Shown here one piece after another: positions 3,576 through 18,171 of a DNA stretch of 64,000 nucleotides; position 1 is the stretch's first letter, and every line of letters begins with the position of its first letter. Both the position numbers and the translations under genes were made by a program. Origin of the DNA: Methylomicrobium sp. wino1 (lineage in GTDB: Bacteria; Pseudomonadota; Gammaproteobacteria; Methylococcales; Methylomonadaceae); contig NZ_CP024202.1 of NCBI RefSeq assembly GCF_003932755.1, forward strand, positions 3,100,001 through 3,164,000, given 5' to 3'. The notes below the pieces were generated by a model. That model ran no database searches and was not told where the DNA came from. It was given only the letters and a program-made list of their open reading frames with translations.

Positions 3576-6374
3576 TTATCGGCCGATCTTATCCCATAAT
3601 GTTTTCGCGTCTTCGATGCCGTTGAAGGTTTGCCCCGTGTTTATTGCAGCTTCAAACTCCGCCTTGGCTTCGTCGAGCCGGCCCAGACGGTAAAGCGCTA
3701 CGCCGATGTGATAGCGGATTTCCGGATCCTCGGATGCCCGGGAGTGCGCGTTGCGTAAATAATTCAAGCCTTTTTCGATTTGTCCTTCGTGGACCAAGAT
3801 CCATCCCAGCGTATCGTTGACGCTGGCAAGCTCGGGCGCCAATTCGCGCGCGCGCTCGGCAACGCGTAAAGCATTGCTGTCGTTTTGCTGAAAATAAATG
3901 TAAGCCAGGTTATTCATTAAGGACGCGTCGTTCGGGTAAATCGTCGACAACCGTTCGAAATGCAGTTGTGCTTCGGGCCAATTGTTTCTATATAAAAACT
4001 CTTCAGCCAAGGCGGCAATCGCTGCATAGTCGTCCGGTCGGTTACCTGACCAAGTTTTCAATAATTCGAATGCATCGTTATTTTGCCCTGTCTGTTTGTA
4101 AGCAAAGTACAGTTTCATCAAATGATCGGTATTTTTTTCTTTGCCGAAAGCCGTTCGATAGTGCTGCAAAGCACCGGTATAATTTTGTTCGCGCCTTTGG
4201 ATATCGCCCATTAACCGGTATCCGTGGGCTTTTTCGGGATATTTTTCAACCAATTCCTGTGCCAAATTTAGAGCCAAAAGCGGATTACCGTAATTCAATT
4301 GCAATTCGGCCAGTCTAATCCGTGCGGGTACATGGGCTTCATCACTCAAAACGGCATTTTTAAGGGATTCGATGGCGTTTAGATAATCTTCGGCGGCAAT
4401 CTGGCGGTTTGCGATGTCATAGAGCCGTTCCGCATGAAATCCGGCGTTCCTGGCCATCCGTTCGAAAATCACGGCCGCCTGTTTATTATTGCCCGACGAC
4501 AGGTATGCTTGTCCAAGCGCACCGAGTATGCCTGCGTCCTCAGGTGCTAAAGCTAAAGCTCCCCTGGCAACTTGTACCGCCTCGGAATACTTCTGCTGTT
4601 TTAATTTTAAATCGATTTGCGCTAAAAAAACCGGCACCGATTTGGCGTTGATTTTTTTGGCTTCCGTCAACACACGTTCCGCTTCGTCATAATTCGAGGT
4701 ATTACCGAGTACTCTGGCCAATTCAATCATGACGGCTTGATTTTGCGGGTATTTGCTGTGCAATTCAGACAAACGACGTTCAGCTTTGTCGAATTTTTTT
4801 TCAGCCGAGTCCAATTTGCCTAGGTTGAATTGTGCGGGAAGGAATTGGGAGTTAATCTCCGCGGCCTTTTCAAAACTGTTCCGGGCTTCGGTCAATTGTC
4901 CCGCAGCCGCCTGAACGATGCCAAGCATGTTCAATATCGTGAGATTTTCGGGTTCTTTGAGATGCAACTGTCGTGCGAGAGCCATTCCTTTGCCGGTTTC
5001 GCCCCTTTTGACGTAGAGAATTAGCAGAGGCAAACCGGCTGTACCGGACACGGGGTTAGCCGCGAAATCGCGTTCCAGTTCTTCAATACCCTGGTTTTCT
5101 TGACCCAAAGCAAGCCATGCCAGCCCCAAATCAGTCCGTCCGCCCTCAACGTGCGAGGTGTTTTCGGACGCTAGGTTGAGCATCTCTGTTGCTTTGTCGT
5201 AACGGCCCAATTTCATATAGGCTTCGGCAAGGATCAACGATAGCCGGAAATCTTTATGCGCGTGCGGTATCACCGGATTCAGCAGTTCGATGACTTTGTC
5301 CGGAGCGTTTTTCGACAGGAGCATCGTTCCGAGCAATTTGTAGACGCCGGGATGATCCGGAAAACGATCGATATAATTTTTTGCGAAAACGGACGCTTGT
5401 TCGAACCGGTTTAGGCTGTAATTGACCAAGGCTGAAAGTAGTAAGCTTTGCGAGTGCTGTAGTAAAAATTCCCGTTTGATCTGACTCAAAATATCGTCGG
5501 CTTCCTCCAGAAACTTAGCTGCTTCATCTACTTTACCGTTACGCGCCAATACAACGGAAAGTAAATAGGCCGCTTTGGGGTCGAAGGGATACGTTTTCCT
5601 AACGAATAGAAGATCGGACTCGGCTTGTCCGTCTTTTTTCTGGTCTATGAAAATTCCGATACGGGCCAAACGGGCGTCGAGATGTTCGGGATCAATGCTC
5701 AACGCTTTGTCGTAATCGGCGACCGCAGCATTCAATTCGCCTTTGGCATGTTTGATGGATGCTTTTATATACCAAGTGCCGGCATTACCGGGTTCCATTA
5801 AGGTAGCCTGATCGGCAAACAACGATGCTTGTTGAAAATCGTTTTTGCGCAGTAACGCGTTGGCTCTCCCTATTGATGGGGCAACCGATGCAGGGTTTTT
5901 CCGTGCGGCCGTATTATATTCTTCAATTGCATTGTCGATCAGGCCGAGTTGCAAATAGGCGTCGCCGCGGAATAAGTGAAGTTCGGATTGAACCGATTGA
6001 CTGTAATGCTCGGGATCGATTTCATTGATTAGTTGACTGTATTTGATCTGGTAAAGATACAATTGCGCTAGATGTCGGACAAGCAGCGATTTGTCGGCTC
6101 CAAGTTTCATTGCACGGGATAAAGCGACTTCGGCACCAGCAAGATTCTTTTCCCGCAAATAAGCTTCGCCCAATAAAATATGCGCCGATACGTAATCAGG
6201 ATGATACTGAAGAGCGTTTTTTAAATGAATGATGGCGTTCTTGACTTCACCATTGCGAAACGCAACAACCGCCTTTTCATAATCTTGACCGGCTTGATCC
6301 GAAATCGCCATGGCTTCGGACGAGTATAACAATACCAGCAAGACGATCAGACTCGATGCGAATTTTTTCATCTC
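3576..6374 (-). CDS. prsT: PEP-CTERM system TPR-repeat protein PrsT
   Basis: This very large protein (about 930 residues) is made of tandem tetratricopeptide repeats from about residue 30 to the end, with typical units such as GEAYLREKNLAGAEVAL and NNLAYIYFQQND. It matches the architecture of PrsT proteins that accompany exosortase/PEP-CTERM systems. The frame extends upstream to 6515. I chose the Met at 6374 because it gives a compact signal peptide (MKKFASSLIVLLVLLYSSEAMA); a Met at 6425 is the alternative. PrsT family members are often called lipoproteins, but this signal peptide lacks a Cys at the cleavage site, so the protein may be periplasmic. The adjacent PEP-CTERM gene supports the assignment. 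Confidence 0.8.
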   Translation of the reverse strand, partial: EMKKFASSLIVLLVLLYSSEAMAISDQAGQDYEKAVVAFRNGEVKNAIIHLKNALQYHPDYVSAHILLGEAYLREKNLAGAEVALSRAMKLGADKSLLVRHLAQLYLYQIKYSQLINEIDPEHYSQSVQSELHLFRGDAYLQLGLIDNAIEEYNTAARKNPASVAPSIGRANALLRKNDFQQASLFADQATLMEPGNAGTWYIKASIKHAKGELNAAVADYDKALSIDPEHLDARLARIGIFIDQKKDGQAESDLLFVRKTYPFDPKAAYLLSVVLARNGKVDEAAKFLEEADDILSQIKREFLLQHSQSLLLSALVNYSLNRFEQASVFAKNYIDRFPDHPGVYKLLGTMLLSKNAPDKVIELLNPVIPHAHKDFRLSLILAEAYMKLGRYDKATEMLNLASENTSHVEGGRTDLGLAWLALGQENQGIEELERDFAANPVSGTAGLPLLILYVKRGETGKGMALARQLHLKEPENLTILNMLGIVQAAAGQLTEARNSFEKAAEINSQFLPAQFNLGKLDSAEKKFDKAERRLSELHSKYPQNQAVMIELARVLGNTSNYDEAERVLTEAKKINAKSVPVFLAQIDLKLKQQKYSEAVQVARGALALAPEDAGILGALGQAYLSSGNNKQAAVIFERMARNAGFHAERLYDIANRQIAAEDYLNAIESLKNAVLSDEAHVPARIRLAELQLNYGNPLLALNLAQELVEKYPEKAHGYRLMGDIQRREQNYTGALQHYRTAFGKEKNTDHLMKLYFAYKQTGQNNDAFELLKTWSGNRPDDYAAIAALAEEFLYRNNWPEAQLHFERLSTIYPNDASLMNNLAYIYFQQNDSNALRVAERARELAPELASVNDTLGWILVHEGQIEKGLNYLRNAHSRASEDPEIRYHIGVALYRLGRLDEAKAEFEAAINTGQTFNGIEDAKTLWDKIGR

Positions 6375-15313: not shown

Positions 15314-15514
15314 TCTCAAGCACCTCCAGTCTATTCGGAAACGGCACTCGCATTATTTTTGCTTGTCAGCGCTCAAGTTCGGCTAGTCACAATGCGCAAG
15401 GAATGATTCAATTTCATTGTCGAAAGTAAATATTGAGGTATCCTATTTTCAGAGATTCATTGGGTTTTATAATTAATCGCTCAATAATAATTATAAATTT
15501 AGGAAGGGGTAAAC

Positions 15515-16399
15515 ATGTTAATCCGTATGCTTTATATCAGTTCGGCGACTCGTCCGATGAGTGATGAGGATATGTTGAATTTGCTTGAGAAGTGCCGAGC
15601 TAATAATGCGGCTCGTAACATTACCGGCATGTTGTTGTACTGCCAGGATACCTTCGTGCAAGTTTTGGAAGGTGAAAATAAAGAAGTGGAGGCACTTTAC
15701 AACTGTATTAAAAAAGATCCGCGTCATAGTGGAATCAACATCCTTGAGCGTAAGGTTGTCGATAAAAGACAGTTTCCCGACTGGAGCATGGGGTTTAAAA
15801 AAATTACCGATGCGGATTTATCGAACGTAGAAGGGCTGAATTCGTTTTTTGAGCATGATGCCGGGTCGGATTATTTCATACACGAGCAAAACATCGTTTC
15901 GCTGTTAATGCAGCATTTTAGAAAAAAATATCAAGCCCAAATGGCTCACGCCGAATTACCCACGGAAGATGTGAATCCTCTGATTGGAAGTTTGCATAAA
16001 ACAATTATCAAAGCCGTCAACGTTTTAGCTGTTTTAATGGTAGCGGTGATCATATTCGGGGTTTGGGATGTCGTTGTCGTTATTTTCGATAAATTATTTA
16101 CTCCGCCTTATCTAATGCTGACAGTCAGCGATATTTTGGCGACTTTCGGATCGTTTATGATGGTTTTGATTGCCATCGAAATTTTTATCAATATTACGCT
16201 GTATCTACGTACCGATGTCATTCCTATCAGGTTGGTGCTTGCAACCGCAGTCATGGCGGTTGCTCGGAAAATTATCATTTTCGACTATAAAGTGATCGAT
16301 CCGCAGTATGTCTATGCATCAGGCGTTGTTATACTGGCTTTAGGCGTTACTTATTGGGTTGTTGGGAAGTATCACACGGAAGAAGATAAAACGATATAG
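15515..16399 (+). CDS. BLUF photoreceptor fused to a PsiE-like membrane domain
   Basis: A 294-residue two-part protein. Residues 2-100 form a BLUF (blue light using FAD) domain. By alignment to AppA from memory the key residues are Tyr7 (LYIS), Asn31 (NNAARNITG), Gln49 (FVQVLEG) and Trp90 (FPDWSMG). After a linker, residues 160-285 hold four membrane segments resembling the PsiE (phosphate-starvation-inducible E) family, including VLIAIEIFINITLYLRTDVI and AVARKIIIFDYKVIDP. Blue light absorbed by the cytoplasmic domain would therefore act on a membrane module of unknown function. GGAAGGGG precedes the ATG and an AT-rich TATAAT-containing region lies upstream. No second gene follows in the operon. 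The domain calls are good; the signalling output is unknown. Confidence 0.85.
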   Translation: MLIRMLYISSATRPMSDEDMLNLLEKCRANNAARNITGMLLYCQDTFVQVLEGENKEVEALYNCIKKDPRHSGINILERKVVDKRQFPDWSMGFKKITDADLSNVEGLNSFFEHDAGSDYFIHEQNIVSLLMQHFRKKYQAQMAHAELPTEDVNPLIGSLHKTIIKAVNVLAVLMVAVIIFGVWDVVVVIFDKLFTPPYLMLTVSDILATFGSFMMVLIAIEIFINITLYLRTDVIPIRLVLATAVMAVARKIIIFDYKVIDPQYVYASGVVILALGVTYWVVGKYHTEEDKTI

Positions 16400-16671: not shown

Positions 16672-17013
16672 ATGTTTATGAAAAATAAATGTTTAATACT
16701 GGCTTTTAGTTCCGTGCTTTTATCGGCTTGTGTGACCGATCCTTACTCCGGACAATCCCGGATGAGCAAGACTGCGATGGGAACCGGCATAGGCGCGGCG
16801 GTAGGTGCAGGCGCCGGTACTCTATTTGGTGGTAACGATTGGAAAAATGCGGGCCTGGGTGCACTGGCCGGAGGCGCGGTCGGTGCTGCGGTCGGCCTGT
16901 ATATGGATAATCAAGAACAAGAGATGCGCGAATCCTTGCAGGGTACGGGCATCGAAATACAAAGAAGTTCGGAAAATACACTTAACTCGTTGAAAGGTAA
17001 GCCACTGGTTTGA
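16672..17013 (+). pseudogene. OmpA-family glycine-zipper lipoprotein, 5' part, split by an IS
   Basis: The first 105 codons of a gene whose remainder lies at 17623-18171. The N-terminus MKNKCLILAFSSVLLSACVTD has a lipobox (LSAC) for lipid attachment. A glycine-zipper region follows (GTGIGAAVGAGAGTLFGG and GLGALAGGAVGAAVGLY), as in YiaD-like lipoproteins. At 16986 the sequence runs into an IS200-type element. The frame continues only nine codons into it, to a stop at 17013. The truncated lipoprotein could still be made and inserted, but it lacks the peptidoglycan-binding domain. Joining 16986 to 17623 gives one continuous frame of about 287 residues. Confidence 0.85.
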
Positions 17014-17622
17014 CCAGTGGGACTATCAAGGCTTTGCCTTTAGATTTAGTTTTTAAAGACATGTAAATTGCTCGTCGGGGCTTGGCGGTCCGCAGAAAGA
17101 GGAGCAATTACATGTCATACGAAAGCTTAAGTCATTCGAAATGGGACTGCAAATATCATGTGGTGTTTGTCCCCAAGTACCGGAAAAAAGTGTTGTATGG
17201 AAAAATCAGAAAGTTTTTAGGTCCGGTGTTTCATGAGTTGGCGGGGCAGCGGCGGAGCAAGATATTGGAAGGGCATATGGTACAAGATCATGTGCATATG
17301 CTGATACAGATTCCGCCGAAGTATTCGGTAGCGGAAGTGGTCGGATACATCAAAGGGAAAAGTGCGATAGCGGTGGCGCGGCAATTTTCGGGAAGGAAGA
17401 AAAATTTCAATGGAGAGAGTTTTTGGGCAAGGGGCTACGCGGTGTCCACCGTGGGATTTGAAGAGGCCCAAATTAGGAAATACATCCGGAATCAAGAACA
17501 ACTCGAAGGCAATGGGTCTGATGATAACGGTGAGTTTTAATAAAACCACAAAAGCTTAACAATGGCAGCCCTTGGGGCTGCTAATAACCGTCAAGCCCCC
17601 CGCTTTGCGGGGGCGATATGAC
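16987..17622 (+). mobile_element. IS200-type insertion sequence, about 636 bp
   Basis: A compact IS200/IS605-like element with one transposase gene. Subterminal hairpins are seen at both ends: CCACTGGTTTGACCAGTGG near 17001-17020 and GCCCCCCGCTTTGCGGGGGC at 17595-17614. There are no terminal inverted repeats and no target duplication, as expected for this family. The left flank ends TTAAC and the element ends ATGAC. Boundaries are uncertain by one or two bases because both junctions share AC and a following T. They are fixed by restoring the host reading frame. Confidence 0.85.
17112..17540 (+). CDS. tnpA: IS200-type transposase TnpA
   Basis: A Y1-type HUH transposase of 142 residues. The metal-binding pair is His60 and His62 in VQDHVHMLIQIPPK. 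The nucleophilic tyrosine is probably Tyr124 in QIRKYIRNQEQ. An open frame extends to 17082, but AGGAGC eight bases before the ATG at 17112 identifies the start (MSYESLSHSKWDCKYHVVFV). The gene is intact, so the element may still be active by single-strand excision and insertion. A GC-rich hairpin (GCAGCCCTTGGGGCTGC, near 17566-17582) after the stop may terminate its transcript. No TnpB accompanies it. Confidence 0.93.
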   Translation: MSYESLSHSKWDCKYHVVFVPKYRKKVLYGKIRKFLGPVFHELAGQRRSKILEGHMVQDHVHMLIQIPPKYSVAEVVGYIKGKSAIAVARQFSGRKKNFNGESFWARGYAVSTVGFEEAQIRKYIRNQEQLEGNGSDDNGEF

Positions 17623-18171
17623 TTGACGATGCCGAGTAGCATTACGTTCGGTTTCGATTCCGCGCAATTGACGCCTCAGGCGATGACCGCATTGGATTCC
17701 GTTGCTAATGTTTTGAATCAGTATCCCGAATCTAACATTACCGTCACCGGACATACCGACGATATCGGCAGCGAAAGTTATAATCTCAAACTGTCCGATC
17801 AACGGGCTGGCAGTGTTTCGAATTATTTGATTCAGCGCGGAGTGAATTATGCTCGGATTTCACAGCAAGGGATGGGTAAATCGATGCCGAAAGTCCCTAA
17901 TACCAGCGAAGAAAATCGAGCTCAAAATCGACGCGTTGAGTTGGCTATCGTTGCTAACCAACCCCCTGCAAATCCTCAACAACCTCAGGGTATCCCTCAA
18001 CAACAAAATTACCCGCAGGAACAGAACTATCCCAGGCAACCGCAAGGAGGTTACCCGCAACAAGGCTATCCTCAACAACAAAGCTATCCTCCGCAACCGC
18101 AGGGCGGTTATCCACAACAATACCCTCAACAGCCAAGTTATCCCCAGCAGCAATATAATTATCCAAGATAA
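17623..18171 (+). pseudogene. OmpA-family lipoprotein, 3' part, with YPQQ-rich tail
   Basis: This is the remainder of the interrupted gene. It holds the OmpA-type peptidoglycan-binding domain: ITFGFDSAQLTPQAMTALDS, NITVTGHTDDIGSESYNLKL, LSDQRAGSVSNYLIQRGV and NRRVELAI. A tail of about 70 residues made of Pro, Gln and Tyr follows, with units such as GGYPQQ and YPQQ. The tail looks disordered and would sit beyond the domain. No start with a ribosome binding site is present inside this half, though an open frame continues from the IS right end. A separately made product would lack the lipoprotein signal and could not be exported. Confidence 0.85.

Follow-up and report, generated by a model that had tools for sequence, protein, structure and literature searches.

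The fusion gene and its two domains

The 64-kb window, by which we mean the whole stretch of DNA that was analysed, contains an open reading frame (start ATG 15515, stop TAG 16399) whose 294-residue product combines an N-terminal BLUF photoreceptor domain with a C-terminal PsiE domain (Table 1). The source genome is a single contig of 5.06 Mb. A purine-rich stretch resembling a Shine-Dalgarno sequence precedes the start codon, as a purine-rich stretch likewise does in the sibling fusion genes. The first-pass annotation had described this frame with Tyr7, Asn31, Gln49 and Trp90 in place, and both its coordinates and these residues are exactly as reported there; Met92 is also present beside them. 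It had further suggested HMM searches on the two halves, and these gave matches to both domains that clear the Pfam cut-offs by a wide margin: PF04940 reached 113.2 bits (cut-off 25) over profile positions 1–92 of 92, and PF06146 reached 124.6 bits (cut-off 23.9) over positions 3–120 of 122. The latter match covers residues 168–286 and so removes the earlier concern that the C-terminal part might give no significant PsiE hit. A scan against NCBIfam yielded no model above its own cut-off for the fusion protein. The fusion seems to be two complete proteins joined end to end.

Table 1. Positions of the fusion gene and its parts in the window, and of a pst-like gene set near a stand-alone PsiE gene in another genome (locus L237)
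Feature	Position	Strand	Evidence
BLUF-PsiE fusion gene, 294 aa	15515..16399	+	ORF, two Pfam domains, orthologues
Shine-Dalgarno-like purine stretch	15502..15509	+	read from sequence, 5' of ATG
BLUF domain, residues 2-93	15518..15793	+	Pfam PF04940 E=6.4e-33
Photocycle codons	Tyr7 15533-15535, Asn31 15605-15607, Gln49 15659-15661, Trp90 15782-15784	+	
Linker, residues 94-154	15794..15976	+	Foldseek alignment, partial similarity to stand-alone BLUF C-termini
PsiE domain, residues 168-286	16016..16372	+	Pfam PF06146 E=3.3e-36
Four predicted membrane helices	~16004-16078, 16130-16207, 16220-16282, 16301-16366	+	hydropathy
pst-like set and PsiE, G970	L237:3-3315 and 5151-5660	-	neighbour listing

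The N-terminal half is a member of the BLUF family, as evidenced by a full-length domain, the photocycle residues and the fold. Among 58 distinct fused proteins, Asn31 and Gln49 are each present in 58/58, Met92 in 57/58, and Tyr7 and Trp90 in 56/58 each. The AlphaFold2 model reaches pLDDT values of 78–91, taken in blocks, over residues 1–90. Its ten best Foldseek matches are chains of TePixD (Tll0078; E=6e-11), and all 50 matches listed are BLUF proteins. By sequence, the nearest solved structures are Tll0078 and Slr1694, and solved examples of BLUF-effector fusions (AppA, BlrP1 and photoactivated adenylyl cyclases) are also among the matches. Phenylalanine occupies the Tyr7 position in two fused proteins (L088:2037-2903 (+) and L096:2063-2944 (+)), which come from genomes G110 and G108 of one genus and in which the photocycle is expected to be blunted.

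The Foldseek alignment to 1x0p_H, a PixD chain of 138 residues, runs over 143 columns, gaps included, which implies that the C-terminal PixD helices are probably part of the match. In the model, linker residues 94–154 would thus probably correspond to PixD-type C-terminal helices followed by an H-x-E-L-P motif, and the linker is partly similar to the C-terminal region of BLUF proteins that occur without a partner domain. The motif occupies residues 145–149, just before the PsiE half, and an ELP motif is also found near the N terminus of four stand-alone PsiE proteins (L234, L238, L239 and L240), while other stand-alone PsiE proteins differ there.

The C-terminal half had been described as carrying four membrane segments, and topology prediction agrees. 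Hydropathy places the segments at approximately residues 164–188, 206–231, 236–256 and 263–284, and AlphaFold2 predicts helices at 155–195, 204–233, 238–255 and 263–292, although at low confidence (pLDDT ~48–62), the alignment behind this part of the model comprising only five PsiE rows. The score above the curated cut-off and the four predicted helices support membership of the PsiE family. Across 126 PsiE domains, fused or not, Phe211, Ala248 and Arg251 are invariant, and Lys252 (98%), Glu222 (96%), Tyr280 (94%) and Asp257 (93%) are highly conserved; the charged residues Glu222, Arg251, Lys252 and Asp257 fall within predicted membrane helices or at their ends. A sequence search for a solved relative of PsiE gave none at E values up to 1. 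Several long PsiE frames were considered as further fusions and rejected, L073 after a Pfam scan showed no second domain, and L155, L156, L158, L160 and L161 after being judged to be open beyond the gene.

The short PixD-type BLUF proteins (TePixD/Tll0078 and Slr1694) have the fold and the photocycle residues in common with the fusion protein, but the source chain runs on into a four-helix membrane domain. PixD is soluble and acts via a separate partner, PixE. AppA, BlrP1 and the photoactivated adenylyl cyclases are, like the fusion, one-component systems with BLUF and output in the same chain. The known outputs of BLUF-effector proteins are soluble enzymes or binding domains, whereas that of the fusion is an uncharacterised integral membrane domain. 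The initial observation that BLUF is coupled here to something other than the familiar cyclase or EAL outputs stands, the output being a PsiE membrane domain in a methanotroph. With PsiE of E. coli and of stress islands the fusion has in common the PF06146 domain and its signature residues, whereas most PsiE relatives examined have no sensor domain. The literature found on BLUF, PsiE and methanotrophs, which was mostly non-subscription and available in part, contains no description of a BLUF-PsiE fusion, and in the equally partial literature found on PsiE no function is stated for this protein. Judging from sequence, the fusion would be a BLUF photoreceptor with a membrane output.

Distribution and origin of the fusion

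An intact frame with 95–97% identity is present in four of the five other genomes of the source genus, and the closest relative named to species is that of Methylotuvimicrobium buryatense 5G (95%). The fifth genome (G001), which is 79% complete, has a BLUF-only match and no PsiE match. Full-length relatives with 42–52% identity were found in five genomes from other genera of the family (41 genomes searched). When the search was extended to the order, at least 50 of the 311 genomes searched proved to carry it (49 checked), a lower bound because weaker matches fall outside the count. It is also intact in 5 of 78 genomes of another Pseudomonadota class, that of G697, and is in two pieces in G842 of the same class. 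The 50 genomes of the order and the five of the other class make up the 55 fusion genomes considered below. In 54 of them a single ORF carrying both domains was verified, whereas G115 was included on the basis of frame length. One copy, in G291, ends before the end of PsiE (profile positions 3–95). Two genomes were kept outside the 55: G224, whose copy is cut by a contig end (L024/L112), and G304, whose copy is in two frames.

Elsewhere in the class of the source genome the fusion is rare, as in an even draw of 369 class genomes a full-length match occurred only in two, G000 and G004, both of the source genus. Of 124 matching plasmid records, one covers most of the length, and belongs to Candidatus Thiodictyon syntrophicum, a purple sulfur bacterium. 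This copy is one gene on a record titled complete sequence, and is annotated merely as a PsiE family protein (WP_100923190.1). A Rhodospira MAG likewise carries the fusion. Phage records gave two matches, to the BLUF part only, and a viral origin was considered and rejected, as 69 pattern-matching stretches in viral contigs included zero relatives.

Together these searches answer the earlier suggestion to look for the same fusion in other genomes, and replace the picture of an isolated oddity with that of a recurrent protein, shared by numerous methanotrophs and some other bacteria and found in an order, a second class and a plasmid. They also bear on the concern that the frame might be an isolated error, that is, a frame or assembly error merging two neighbouring genes. 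Separate BLUF and PsiE genes do exist, and are even neighbours in G353, but the intact orthologues in four sibling genomes rule out a frame error, and the single ORFs in nearly all fusion genomes together with the one gene on the plasmid record make a merging artefact vanishingly improbable.

Fused and stand-alone PsiE domains are interleaved on the PsiE tree, the deep branches of which are weak. On this tree of 43 rows, which were thinned by identity with L111 and L112 left out and 15 distant rows then removed, four changes are needed, and a single fusion clade has a p-AU of 0.036. On the BLUF tree, which omits L065 (a broken fusion), L256, L016 and a spurious L077 row, the corresponding p-AU is 0.24. 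The two trees leave room both for a single early fusion that was lost again in places and for a small number of separate fusion events.

Genes beside the fusion and beside stand-alone PsiE

Gene neighbours were surveyed at 24 fusion loci, namely L021, L022, L023 and L152 plus 20 stretches taken from the order, each ~15 kb long at most (18 from the source family and 2 from family f6), and were also listed for five further loci of the other class. Genes related to light, UV and oxidative damage are those that turn up repeatedly beside the fusion. DUF1722 (RudS) occurs within 5 kb of the fusion in 16 of the 55 fusion genomes and 11 of 21 genera, or in 14 genomes and 9 genera without the partial matches in G177 and G728, compared with 0.16 expected if placement is uniform, with relatedness covered by the genus counts alone. 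Under the same assumption, photolyase would be expected within 8 kb in 0.20 genomes, and it was found there in 10 of 55 (6 of 21 genera). Contig ends render these counts conservative. The association covers part of the range, with no DUF1722 within 5 kb in 39/55 genomes, no photolyase within 8 kb in 45/55, and no photolyase match anywhere in 12/55; the fusion aside, every neighbour cluster is limited to 8 or fewer of the 24 loci.

Pfam scans of chosen genes confirmed DNA photolyase in L180, L181 and L231, LitR-like MerR regulators with B12 domains at fusion loci L176, L181 and L189, a MerR regulator without a B12 domain in L231, and a TudS-DUF1722 protein, which is RudS, at L186. They also identified a lipocalin (L231), a glutathione peroxidase (L230), a pyrimidine-dimer glycosylase (L185) and, behind the fusion in L228, an MsrB/SelR gene. 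The molybdopterin oxidoreductase genes in L176 and L182 and the ferric-reductase-like gene in L176, also recognised by Pfam, are presumably MsrP/MsrQ-like. Short LOV proteins with the motif G(R/H)NCRFLQ are encoded in L176, L182 and L186, with PAS recognised by Pfam in L176. In G030, a PsiE that stands alone but belongs to the subfamily of the fused domains is clustered with a MerR-type regulator, in which a B12 domain was searched for and none found, and with photolyase, RudS, lipocalin and flavin oxidoreductase genes. In two genomes of the other class the fusion lies directly behind thiI (L228:4247-6717 and L229:4103-6218; Pfam scan on L229 only), the product of which makes tRNA 4-thiouridine.

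In Pseudomonas, the expression of light-inducible genes is governed by regulators of the LitR class together with a short LOV protein (PMC9758184), and RudS is found in light-responsive operons (PMC11417400). Homologues from the Pseudomonas regulon (photolyase, RudS and LitR) adjoin the fusion in part of its range. The words 'BLUF' and 'PsiE' are both absent from the main text of the RudS paper (PMC11417400), and the sole mention of 'BLUF' in the available text of the LitR paper (PMC9758184) is of E. coli BluF. By contrast, the source genome keeps the fusion gene (3.12 Mb) apart from its photolyase gene (0.46 Mb) and its DUF1722 copies (0.46 and 2.71 Mb); the 0.46-Mb region contains RudS, DUF1499, lipocalin and ferric-reductase-like genes. 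The sole photolyase match of this genome (G000:C1:463478-463939, L253) falls in a frame that stays open for 226 aa, compared with 456–457 aa in its four siblings.

Directly around the fusion in the source genome are cupin and FAD-linked oxidase genes upstream and a split OmpA-family gene downstream. The latter (16672-18171) is in one piece in the relative L021, and in the source has ~630 extra bases (~16988-17620) with an IS200-type transposase ORF (Y1_Tnp) at 17082-17540. Four siblings have a second BLUF gene ~6 kb from the fusion (G004:C1:359089-359388, with equivalents in G002, G003 and G005), for which the source genome gave no match near its fusion or elsewhere. A search for shared upstream elements found none common to 58 upstream regions, TGTACA being present in 2/58, and a promoter scan, which found 3 compared with 4.1 expected, was given no weight. 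A TTTACATGNTAAATT-like element (one mismatch allowed) was considered as a mark of a regulon, occurring at 3 of 36 loci searched, and was rejected because it is always 5' of the fusion gene and never 5' of the light genes.

The first-pass annotation had regarded the PsiE half as a phosphate-starvation module, which would make the fusion a light input to phosphate starvation. The name 'phosphate-starvation-inducible' stems from the regulation of psiE in E. coli, and this, with the family name derived from it, speaks for such a role, as does the gene order in G970, in which a pstSCA-like set of periplasmic-binding-protein and permease genes is found ~1.8 kb away from a stand-alone PsiE gene belonging to another subfamily. 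Against it, a search of the 64-kb window that allowed up to 3 mismatches found no Pho box of the E. coli type, where 0.22 would be expected by chance (a methanotroph Pho box could differ), and no phosphate genes were recognised by eye around the 24 fusion loci. We therefore did not retain the phosphate reading, which we consider very improbable.

Stand-alone and differently fused PsiE domains have other partners. A 398-aa frame (L157:1557-2750 (-)) joins a protoglobin (E=1.7e-26) to PsiE, and a second copy with 84% identity, in G1058, has two stops inside the match and no long ORF and may be broken; this search covered 12 genomes of that order. Another frame of 484 aa (L154:767-2218 (-)) joins the membrane protein TerC (E=1.5e-49) to PsiE. 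In G353, genes for BLUF and PsiE are back to back and divergent (L153:3535-3945 (-) and 4224-4715 (+)), and the other three genomes of that family have neither a BLUF nor a PsiE match. Several stand-alone PsiE genes are located near ion-transport genes. That of G007 follows the last subunit gene of an Mrp/Mnh-type operon by 153 bases. Of 36 genomes chosen among those with a stand-alone PsiE, three (G429, G446 and G668) encode an Na/H exchanger within 5 kb of it and the other 33 do not, where a hand estimate (~120 hits x 10 kb / ~3.1 Mb) would give ~0.4. A P-type cation ATPase gene adjoins PsiE in G446, and on an Azonexus plasmid nhaR, a PsiE gene and a mechanosensitive-channel gene follow one another (L257:6917-9230). 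The available portions of three papers place PsiE of a transmissible stress island next to the K+/H+ antiporter KefB/KefC (PMC7010813, PMC8290217, PMC7685784). To judge from these portions, PsiE beside KefB in heat- and stress-resistance islands has a stress-related context, like the fusion.

Proposed function and alternatives

We propose that the fusion is a membrane blue-light sensor which controls an ion-homeostasis module during photo-oxidative stress, an explanation to which we give about even weight as a whole. Its components differ in strength. The light part is probable and, with the stress context, fairly well supported; the ion part is much less firm and tentative, falling somewhat short of even. 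In mechanistic terms, blue light would switch the hydrogen-bond network between Tyr7, Gln49 and the flavin, the linker helices would pass the change in BLUF to the first membrane helix, and the altered PsiE bundle would affect ion or proton balance across the membrane, either directly or via a neighbouring transporter. This would provide a rapid, transcription-independent adjustment of the membrane under blue or near-UV light stress.

We infer the ion or proton role of PsiE from the conserved charges Glu222, Arg251, Lys252 and Asp257 in or at the membrane helices, and from the partners and neighbours of its relatives, namely TerC, cation antiporters, NhaR, an MscS-type channel and a cation ATPase. 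These ion-transport neighbours are few and belong to stand-alone PsiE genes, none to the fusion, and the stand-alone PsiE that adjoins a pst-like set runs counter to the ion reading. In a broader version, PsiE would conduct ions or protons, or gate an antiporter, under the control of interchangeable partner domains; BLUF-PsiE would then be a natural blue-light-gated ion pathway that rebalances ions immediately on the threat of light damage, with protoglobin-PsiE as its gas-gated counterpart. This version is speculative and in our view improbable.

PsiE profile matches are present in 184 of the 311 genomes of the order, and the fused photoreceptor offers a controllable input for this family, which means that the output of PsiE can be sought by comparing light with dark. 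If the output is ion flux, the fusion would be a naturally occurring BLUF-gated membrane protein that might serve in optogenetics. Even without ion flux, it would extend the BLUF family by a membrane output and bacterial light-stress responses by a new part.

The main rival to an ion output is docking or redox sensing. Under light-controlled docking, PsiE would be an anchor or oligomerisation platform and the BLUF domain would hold and release a soluble partner, so that the output would be this signalling partner, much as PixD holds and releases PixE in a light-dependent manner. The closeness of the BLUF half to PixD-type proteins and the light regulators (LitR-like and LOV) adjoining some fusion genes are consistent with this. 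Docking nevertheless appears rather unlikely, as the conservation of PsiE residues over the 126 domains, charges included, goes beyond what an anchor needs, and any one candidate partner gene accompanies the fusion at 8 of the 24 loci at most.

The proposed blue-light sensor must also be weighed against a sensor of redox or flavin state, or of temperature, that sets PsiE activity in oxidative stress and does not respond to light. Oxidative-damage genes are indeed among the neighbours of the fusion (MsrP/Q-like, MsrB and glutathione peroxidase), protoglobin, one of the other domains fused to PsiE, is of a haem sensor type, and PsiE lies near KefB in stress islands in the available text of the reports cited above (PMC7010813, PMC8290217, PMC7685784). 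Against such a sensor, which we regard as distinctly unlikely, the photocycle positions are kept in 56–58 of the 58 fused proteins, and the photolyase, RudS and LOV neighbours point to light itself.
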